Source: a virus. From it: DNA of 35,844 bases. Under the pieces are notes generated by a model, which was not told where the DNA came from, ran no database searches, and saw only the letters and a program-made list of their open reading frames with translations. The stretch is taken from positions 1 to 35,844 of the IMG/VR virus record IMGVR_UViG_3300032215_000905. The stretch is one strand, 5' to 3'. This document shows, piece by piece, positions 195-35,844 of this stretch; the stretch's first letter is position 1; each line of letters opens with the position of its first letter. A program made the translations under genes and the position numbers.

Positions 195-713
195 TCATCG
201 CCACCCCTCCCGCTTGAGTTCCTTCTGCTGCCGTGCCCGAGCCGCAGCATGTGAATCCTCCGGCTGCCGACGGAAATCCAACACCTTCCCGGACCGGGAC
301 ACCCGCTCCACCCTGGCCGCGAGTTGCTCCGCAGTGAGCCGGTCCTTGTCGGAGGACTTCCGGCCCGGCCCGCGGCCACAGACCTTGCAGGCCTTCGGGG
401 CTACCAGCACATCCGACACCGCTGATACGGCTTTGGGCTGGAGAGCAGTGAGCCGGCGGAGGGCAGCGGCCGAGGCCTCCCGCTGGAGCTCAGCCAGCGC
501 CTGCTGCACCTCGGGCTTCGCTGCCCACTTCCCCACCGCCCATTGGGTCACTCCCAGGTCAGCAGCAATTTTCGTGTAGGTGTCGCCTTCCGCCAGACGA
601 GCCACGAAATCGACAGGCATCGCAGTTTTATGGGCTTTCTTCGCAGCCGGGGCTTTCTTCTTTGCAGCTTTCCGAGCCGGCTTTGCTTTGGGCTCTACAG
701 GTTCTGCGCTCAT
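195..713 (-). CDS. Probable terminase small subunit (HTH protein)
   Basis: This 172-aa protein probably recognises packaging DNA and hands it to the large terminase. Residues 1-31 are Lys/Ala/Pro-rich and basic, like a histone-type tail. Residues about 34-60 form a helix-turn-helix (DTYTKIAADLGVTQWAVGKW), followed by an Ala/Leu-rich helical segment (about 70-100) of the kind seen in phage small terminases. A CKVC motif and a charged C-terminus follow. The ATG at 713 overlaps the stop of the upstream HTH gene (ATGA) and has a GGGAGGGAG ribosome site. On a circular map it lies upstream of TerL with two unknown genes between. TerS families diverge strongly, so a plain DNA-binding regulator remains possible. 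Confidence 0.55.
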   Translation of the reverse strand: MSAEPVEPKAKPARKAAKKKAPAAKKAHKTAMPVDFVARLAEGDTYTKIAADLGVTQWAVGKWAAKPEVQQALAELQREASAAALRRLTALQPKAVSAVSDVLVAPKACKVCGRGPGRKSSDKDRLTAEQLAARVERVSRSGKVLDFRRQPEDSHAAARARQQKELKREGWR

Positions 714-928
714 GGCTCTCCCTCCCCGAATGCCAGCCAGCTGACCCGAACCCCGGTTGCCCTCGCGATGGATGCCAGAGTATCGGCGTACATCCCCCGC
801 TTGGATTGACCGGAGACAGCCCGTTCTAGACCCCGGCGATCAAACCCCGCAGCCTCGGCTACCACATAGACCGGGCGTCCATTGATGGCTTTCCGCAATC
901 GGAACGCCAGTGCATTGCCACCGCTCAT
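710..928 (-). CDS. Small Cro/CI-type HTH DNA-binding protein
   Basis: This 72-aa protein has an XRE-like helix-turn-helix (YVVAEAAGFDRRGLERAV, about residues 22-39) and the C-terminal signature ATGVRVSWLAFGEG that is typical of phage Cro/CI-like regulators. I chose the ATG at 928 because GGAGGAGAAC stands directly before it. Longer in-frame extensions up to 1198 run through the repeat-rich non-coding region and carry no such site. It is coupled to the TerS-like gene by an ATGA overlap. Sitting next to the origin-like repeats, it may bind them or control the late genes. The regulator family is clear; the role is inferred. Confidence 0.7.
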   Translation of the reverse strand: MSGGNALAFRLRKAINGRPVYVVAEAAGFDRRGLERAVSGQSKRGMYADTLASIARATGVRVSWLAFGEGEP

Positions 929-943
929 GTTCTCCTCCAGCCA

Positions 944-984
944 GGAACAGAACCGGGAACAGCCTCTGGAACAGCCTCTGGAAC
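944..984 (+). repeat. Left iteron cluster, GGAAC every 12 bp
   Basis: GGAAC starts at 944, 956, 968 and 980. The last two are full CCTCTGGAAC units, and a degenerate CTGGAC follows at 990-995. The 12-bp period is a multiple of three, so it also gives an apparent peptide repeat in a spurious minus-strand ORF. Confidence 0.7.
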
Positions 985-1026
985 GGACCCTGGACTGTAG
1001 GTTGTATCTATGTAGTTCCAGGGTTG

Positions 1027-1073
1027 GATAAAATATAGATAAACATTGATAAGTGATAGATACAGAGAAGATA
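1027..1073 (+). repeat. Helically phased GATA motifs in the AT-rich core
   Basis: GATA begins at 1027, 1038, 1048, 1059 and 1070 (steps 11, 10, 11, 11), with an extra copy at 1055. The surrounding DNA is the most AT-rich stretch of this part of the genome, as expected for a DNA-unwinding element. Confidence 0.55.
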
Positions 1074-1128
1074 GGAAACGCGAAACGCGGCCAACCATGT
1101 AACAGCATAGGATCAAGGCGTGTTTGTG

Positions 1129-1180
1129 CCTGGAACCTACCCTGGAACACCCTGGAACACCCTGGAACACCCTGGAACTT
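1129..1180 (+). repeat. Right iteron cluster, five CCTGGAAC units
   Basis: Five units begin at 1129, 1141, 1151, 1161 and 1171. The three middle ones are identical CCTGGAACAC decamers in exact tandem. The orientation is the same as in the left cluster. A 10-bp period puts each unit on the same face of the helix. Confidence 0.8.
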
Positions 1181-4183: not shown

Positions 4184-4716
4184 TGGATGCTCCTGGCTGC
4201 TGTCAGCCAGTCCAGGTTTTTGACCTGCACCGCGTTGTTGGTGAGCCAGAAGGTGTTGAGCGAGGCCATCCCCCGCTTCGCATTGCCCTGGAACCAGGTC
4301 TCCCAGGGCAACCGGAGAATGCTCCAATCAACCCACCAGATCGTCTGGCCTATGCCTTCCGGCTGGATGCAGAGAATCACGCCCGCCCGATGGGCTTCGC
4401 TCTGGTCGGTCCACCGGGAAAAGAACGCCGCCTGATGCTCTTCCAGCTTGGAGAGCGGCCAGCTGCCACCGATGGTGGACTTCGCGTCCGCCACGATGGA
4501 TAGACCGCAAGCGATCAACATAAAGTCCGGCTCCGCTGGTTTTTCCGGCACCACCACCAGACTGGCACCCTGCCTCCGAATCACCTTGTACGGGGTCGGG
4601 AAGCGGGCGAAACAATGGCCACGCCCCTTGTAAAATTCGTGCATGGCCTCCAGGGCATCCTCGAAGGGCTTGCCCCGGTTGGCCTGGCTGGTTGGTGGGC
4701 GGGAGGTACCGCTCAT
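4180..4716 (-). CDS. RecU-like Holliday junction resolvase
   Basis: This 178-aa nuclease is expected to cut four-way junctions formed during replication and recombination before packaging. Family marks are NRGK (13-16), Glu19, FPTPYK (39-44), PDF with Asp64, the catalytic ADAKST core (76-81) and the block PLSKLEEHQ (87-95). Together these give the RecU PD-(D/E)XK fold with Asp64, Asp77 and Lys79 as likely active-site residues. The C-terminus is less conserved. It is coupled by four-base overlaps on both sides to the metallopeptidase and helicase genes, so the three are likely produced together. RecU is best known from Firmicutes and their phages, which hints at modular exchange but does not identify the host. 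Confidence 0.8.
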   Translation of the reverse strand: MSGTSRPPTSQANRGKPFEDALEAMHEFYKGRGHCFARFPTPYKVIRRQGASLVVVPEKPAEPDFMLIACGLSIVADAKSTIGGSWPLSKLEEHQAAFFSRWTDQSEAHRAGVILCIQPEGIGQTIWWVDWSILRLPWETWFQGNAKRGMASLNTFWLTNNAVQVKNLDWLTAARSIQ

Positions 4717-14459: not shown

Positions 14460-14462
14460 GCT

Positions 14463-14684
14463 TGGACCCCCTGTGGACCCTGACCGGTTTTCGATTCGCC
14501 AGAATCATAGGCCCAAGGCCAATAGTAAGCAGGATGGCGGCGGACCATGATTATGGTGTCCATCCAAAGCACCCTGGTTGTACCAGAATAATCCAGTAGG
14601 TACCGTGCTGAAGATCCACGGGACACCCATGGAGCTTCGTAAAACCGTGGGCAATCTGCAGGCCATGGACCCCAGGTGGACCCT
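14463..14684. other. Candidate attP region with paired TGGACCC direct repeats
   Basis: Directly after int, TGGACCCC-N3-TGGACCCT occurs at 14463-14481 and again at 14666-14684, about 203 bp apart and in the same orientation. A related TGGACCT lies in the int tail (14377-14383). Between them are ACCAT-GATT-ATGGT (14544-14557) and the most AT-containing part of this gap. Paired direct repeats flanking a core next to int are what lambda-type arm sites look like. The core itself cannot be fixed without the host. No gene is seen in 14460-14797. Confidence 0.45.
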
Positions 14685-14741
14685 CCATCCAGCGGCGTCG
14701 TAAGCATCGCGCACAAGCCGCGCGTCTCCGATTGGGCTGGC

Positions 14742-35835: not shown

Positions 35836-35844
35836 AAATAGATA
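35836..35844. repeat. Right copy of 9-bp terminal direct repeat
   Basis: This is the second copy of AAATAGATA, preceded by an alternating GC run (GCGCGCGCGGCCGG, about 35820-35833). Joining the ends places the minus-strand gene at 35780 downstream of the TerS-like gene at 195-713, so the leftward operon becomes continuous. Confidence 0.6.

Follow-up and report, generated by a model that had tools for sequence, protein, structure and literature searches.

What is the function of the non-coding DNA that lies between a gene for a VapE-like helicase and a small gene for a helix-turn-helix (HTH) protein in the IMG/VR virus record IMGVR_UViG_3300032215_000905? The record was analysed over its whole length of 35,844 bp (the window, to which all positions below refer). 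Judging from the sequence, we consider it quite probable that the segment from about 942 to 1178 is a replication origin of the type known from Staphylococcus aureus pathogenicity islands (SaPI) and phage-inducible chromosomal islands (PICI), here carried by a tailed phage. The central reading, that of an iteron origin with the VapE-like helicase as its initiator, has good support from comparison with many relatives, in which place, two-sided plan and core spacing are the same, from the SaPI Rep-like fold of the helicase and from the published SaPI/PICI origins. A preliminary description of the sequence had already read the region as an iteron origin, and in this respect it stands; the initiator reading both faces of the DNA that it also proposed finds no support.

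The heptamer CTGGAAC occurs seven times on the + strand between 966 and 1178, starting at 966, 978, 1130, 1142, 1152, 1162 and 1172. On the left, GGAAC cores at 944, 956, 968 and 980 follow each other in 12-bp steps, the first two in degenerate units, and a further degenerate unit (GGACT) is found at 992. On the right, the cores at 1132, 1144, 1154, 1164 and 1174 are separated by one 12-bp step and then by three of 10 bp. The two periods of about 10 and 12 bp are therefore where the preliminary description had placed them, and the number of copies is far above that in shuffled sequence, since no 7-mer exceeded three copies when the region was shuffled 2000 times with its dinucleotides preserved, and three to four copies were the most reached anywhere in 30 shuffles of the entire 35.8 kb. 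The orientation had been given as the same on both sides. This holds for iteron sets 1 and 2, but an exact inverted copy, GTTCCAGGGT, which had been overlooked, directly adjoins the AT-rich core and faces set 1 across it, so that the copies nearest the core converge, but set 2 points the same way as set 1.

The core is the most AT-rich stretch of the record and, as previously noted, contains GATA at 1027, 1038, 1048, 1059 and 1070, in steps of 10–11 bp, with one unphased extra copy at 1055. Five GATAs with such steps were not produced in any of 20,000 shuffles of the core, and five copies of any tetramer at any step of 7–15 bp were not produced in any of 4,000. A second element absent from the preliminary description is an inverted repeat whose arms bracket the core with 16 of 20 positions paired, the best of 60 shuffles reaching 15. 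Read on the gene strand from the helicase stop, GTTCCAG stands at +10, +20, +30, +40 and +52, followed by the AT-rich core from about +108 to +163, the inverted copy at +167, GTTCCAG at +204 and +216, degenerate units at +228 and +240, and then the HTH start codon. The first iteron thus begins 10 bases past the end of the helicase stop codon, the placement found in SaPI/PICI origins. Codon statistics bear out that the region is non-coding, though the HTH reading frame happens to remain open across it. A 162-residue open frame running from 1198 through the region was rejected, its codon score being −0.34 compared with +0.15 to +0.25 in real genes, and a single-strand hairpin origin was rejected because the folding energy of the region is no better than that of shuffles (z −0.74). 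The coordinates of the features are compiled in Table 1.

Table 1. Features of the candidate origin and the two genes that flank it.
Feature	Position	Strand	Match or remark
VapE-like self-loading helicase, proposed initiator, 549 aa	1188..2837	-	PF05272 E 2.7e-72; 7pds match
Helicase domains: weakly DnaB-N-like N-terminus; AAA+ helicase domain (VapE-like part); C-terminal winged helix	residues 7-69; 245-458; ~490-543		
Iteron set 1, five GTTCCAG on the gene strand	1130..1178	-	steps of 10, 10, 10 and 12 bp
Inverted-repeat right arm	1091..1110	.	contains degenerate iteron GTTACATGG (gene strand)
AT-rich core, presumed melting site	1025..1080	.	GATA is TATC on the gene strand
Single inverted iteron, convergent with set 1	1015..1024	+	115 bp start to start from nearest set-1 copy
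Inverted-repeat left arm	1008..1027	.	takes in the inverted iteron
Iteron set 2, exact copies at 966 and 978 plus three degenerate ones	942..996	-	12-bp steps; oriented as set 1
72-aa HTH protein gene, transcription-regulator type, adjoining the candidate origin	710..928	-	phrog_2328 E 2e-7

Within 930–1190 the motif CCWGG is five times denser (30.8 versus 6.0 per kb), each iteron of set 1 containing CCTGG. The phage also encodes a Dcm-superfamily cytosine methyltransferase (10212–11699), and the origin may be under methylation control.

The only solved relative of the helicase found by sequence is 7pds (E 1e-33), the SaPI-type initiator helicase deposited as 'Similar to D. nodosus vapE' / PriRep1 in complex with double-stranded DNA. 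The AlphaFold2 (AF2) model, confident over residues 150–549, where the helicase and C-terminal domains have predicted local distance difference test (pLDDT) values exceeding 90, matches 7pds with a Z-score of 32.3 over 380 residues (151–549), and the next entry scores 15.3. In the predicted structure, the last 55 residues adopt the strand-helix-helix-hairpin order of a winged helix. These matches and the order of elements at 490–543 are those of a helicase of Rep type that has its DNA-binding domain at the C-terminus. The N-terminal 70 or so residues, beginning at the gene's start (2790–2837, − strand), resemble the DnaB N-terminal domain PF00772, with an E-value of 8e-4 when searched alone and 0.009 within the whole protein, below the curated cut-off. 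No solved DnaB matched this segment by sequence, and its structure predicted alone (pLDDT 46) was uninformative. No primase domain was found in the protein. At the same position, relatives carry other modules, namely a DnaG-type primase (locus L138), an NrS-1-type module (L141) or DUF3854 (L119), and our guess is that the weakly DnaB-N-like N-terminus recruits the host primase instead. If the domain is real, the initiator would carry its own docking site for that enzyme. The Walker A motif reads GAQGVKKS (1900–1930, − strand), where K or R replaces the customary G, a substitution shared by several relatives.

No close relatives of the phage were found with the large terminase or the helicase as single queries against viral contigs, nor by blastn against phages, and the comparison is for this reason based on distant relatives of the helicase. 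A total of 231 of these from annotated phages, viral contigs and genomes was reduced to 75 at less than 75% mutual identity, of which 73 had sufficient flanking sequence; their hosts include Pseudomonadota, Acidobacteriota, Planctomycetota, Cyanobacteriota and Bacillota. For the 600 bp that follow each helicase gene, the densest array of a 7-mer, counted on both strands, was compared with control windows of the same locus. In 32 of the 73 loci the densest array of the locus sits 3' of the helicase gene, with about 3.5 expected, and a rank test over all 73 gives a p-value of 3e-9. The 3' array of this phage beats 114 of its 114 control windows, with eight copies versus at most five. This dereplicated, within-locus test supersedes an earlier one, based on an exact 600-bp flank and shuffles only, which had found arrays in 14 of 79 loci on the 3' side and 8 of 78 on the 5' side; the earlier result was weak because many of the loci were near-duplicates of a Pseudomonas group in which a small intervening gene precedes the array.

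The arrays share a plan and not a sequence. Opposed iterons flank a core in 21 of the 26 strong loci at a distance of 72–132 bp start to start, within which the 115 bp of this phage is typical, and the iterons themselves vary from locus to locus (TGTTCCC, GGTCCGG, TGTCCCA, CAACCGA and CGTCCCT, among others). The identical heptamer GTTCCAG recurs with the same plan at the distant Acidobacteriota locus L138. The plan is present in isolated or complete phages, namely Marinobacter phage PS3 (L008), Dulem virus 37 (L011), APSE-7 (L012) and Staphylococcus phage 2638A (L013), as well as in prophage-like loci of several phyla; for APSE-7, the depositors placed a putative origin elsewhere, upstream. 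In Marinobacter phage PS3, the predicted origin (4186–4440) comes directly after the gene named 'DNA primase', on its 3' side. After control for the AAA+ domain, similarity between iterons tracks similarity between C-terminal domains (36 loci, partial Spearman 0.17, permutation p 0.002), whereas the reverse dependence, on the AAA+ domain with the C-terminal domain held constant, is not significant in the same 36 loci (0.09, p 0.10). Steps of 8–13 bp, mixed inside a single origin, are usual among these loci, and the two periods of the present region consequently need no special explanation. Of the two traits that the preliminary description had called unusual, the dual spacing is thus ordinary for the class; the GATA phasing is indeed peculiar to this phage, five phased tetramers being found in one of 21 cores, and was rejected as a class feature. 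With the mixed periods ordinary and the phasing absent from the other 20 cores, an initiator that reads both faces of the DNA is not upheld. The phased GATAs are perhaps a helically phased melting element or the site of a second protein.

In the published systems, SaPI Rep uses its C-terminal domain to read downstream iterons (PMC7581432), and the repeats of the SaPI origin face opposite ways and load two head-to-head hexamers (PMC9894130). By analogy, the VapE-like helicase would be its own initiator, its C-terminal winged helix reading the GTTCCAG iterons. Set 1 may carry one helicase assembly, while another, oppositely oriented, forms at the inverted copy, backed by set 2; placed head to head, the helicases would then open the AT-rich core between them, presumably by melting in the GATA stretch. 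The origins of SaPIbov1, SaPI5 and the E. coli PICIs likewise have opposed repeats beside a core and a helicase whose C-terminal domain binds DNA (PMC6092414, PMC7581432, PMC9894130). The present region differs from them in that its outer set is oriented as set 1 and has a different step (12 bp), its AT-rich core has phased GATAs, the helicase shows a weakly DnaB-N-like N-terminus and no primase domain was found in it, and it is carried not by a satellite but by a tailed phage, which has genes for terminase, tape measure and integrase. At the putative origin of Cch2 / SCCmec, an initiator-like helicase also binds direct repeats just downstream of its own gene through a C-terminal domain (PMC7581432), but there are only three iterons of 5 nt and the helicase belongs to another family, D5_N / Primase_Cterm. 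Opposed recognition elements also direct two head-to-head hexamers of T-antigen to open the intervening DNA at the SV40 origin (PMC9894130), where, however, the recognition domain is N-terminal (PMC7581432) and not, as here by homology, C-terminal, and the repeat sequence is unrelated. By homology, the initiator of the present phage would be the helicase itself. Classical iteron plasmid and lambda-type origins resemble the region in combining iterons with an AT-rich melting region, but there a non-helicase initiator loads DnaB.

Several observations weigh against an origin of this type. By the 3' test, 41 of the 73 loci have no such array, and they include nearly all of the marine helicases of 440–460 aa, which are among the closest by sequence (37–42% identity) and may have their origins elsewhere. 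Only one exact copy is inverted, set 2 being oriented as set 1; in many relatives a pair or a whole set is inverted. The covariation between iterons and C-terminal domains is small, and the permutation test does not fully remove shared ancestry. When viral contigs were searched in reverse for three GTTCCAG at 10-bp steps, nine places were found, mostly one-sided arrays, with a VapE-like helicase in the available DNA of none of them, so that the heptamer by itself is not diagnostic of this initiator. Finally, the GC skew, which the preliminary description had named as a check, does not switch at 1060, the extremes of the record being at 6,776 and 32,412; this is weak evidence in a small phage with mixed gene directions.

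Arrays of GTTCCAG on both sides of AT-rich stretches were also seen with no VapE-like helicase in the available DNA (L250, 10881–11061; L255, 3199–3678; L258, 3434–3770). At L018, whose helicase is 42% identical, six ACCGACC lie within about 100 bp (909–1012), some 2 kb upstream of the gene.

The position of set 2, 14–68 bp upstream of the HTH start codon, and the resemblance of the 72-aa protein to phage repressors would suit an operator array, in which the repeats are sites for that protein, which would regulate the gene encoding it and possibly also the replication operon, the region being no origin or one only by accident. We regard this as improbable. Ten next genes scanned behind the arrays of relatives encode two VRR nucleases, one protein with a sub-threshold KorA-like match and seven proteins without a family, and thus no accepted HTH protein; a scan of the region for sigma-70-like promoters, which left other promoter types outside its scope, found none; and an operator leaves unexplained the AT-rich core, the constant convergent geometry of 72–132 bp and the placement behind the helicase gene. 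With an HTH family in none of those ten genes, the neighbourhood equally gives no support to the partner role at the origin that had been proposed for the 72-aa protein, which as a query returned only five weak loci.

A packaging site, at which the small terminase encoded beside the HTH gene (195–713) would bind the repeats and the AT-rich core would provide a bend of the kind seen at pac or cosB sites, is less probable still. Phased AT-rich blocks can bend DNA, and the region does lie between replication genes and a gene similar to terminase small subunits (phrog_2538, E 8e-5). The same plan, however, follows VapE-like helicase genes where the next gene encodes a VRR nuclease or a protein of unknown family, although no systematic search for small terminases was made at those loci, and the 9 bp shared by the two record ends, unique in the record and located about 1 kb away between terminase-like genes, would be the better fit for a cohesive-end site. 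Short tandem units of 10 and 12 bp can also originate by slippage, and the repeats might then be a functionless byproduct or recombination seed in a non-coding gap; this we find barely credible, as position, two-sidedness and spacing recur with different sequences in many lineages, which is not expected from slippage.

The recurrence of the plan points to a kind of origin that is far commoner among phages than is allowed for by the 2018 description, which confined it to PICIs. Whether tailed phages and prophages of at least five bacterial phyla widely share this replicon type seems to us evenly balanced; in such a type the geometry of the origin would be fixed, and the N-terminal priming module freely exchanged between a DnaG-type primase, an NrS-1-type polymerase module, DUF3854 or, as here, a DnaB-N-like domain making use of the host's primase. 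The plan would also provide a simple rule for locating origins in phages with VapE-like helicases, and the varied iterons and C-terminal domains a natural series for working out how residues read bases.

The element itself is a tailed phage and not a PICI. Besides the helicase, it has genes for a large terminase (phrog_2), a tape measure protein (phrog_3827), an integrase, an ERF-type recombinase and a methyltransferase, and the large terminase, tape measure and other late genes within 35.8 kb set it apart from the phage satellites. The ends of the record, 1–9 and 35836–35844, are the same nine bases, AAATAGATA, found nowhere else in it. They have the small-terminase-like gene on one side and, on the other, the genes that lead up to the large terminase, the arrangement expected of filled-in cohesive ends. 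Immediately after the integrase gene, in 14460–14690, there are two pairs of TGGACCC with 11-bp spacing (14463 and 14474; 14666 and 14677), similar to attP arm-type sites. Another AT-rich stretch, near the methyltransferase genes, has five TTATGCT in 82 bp (12721–12808).
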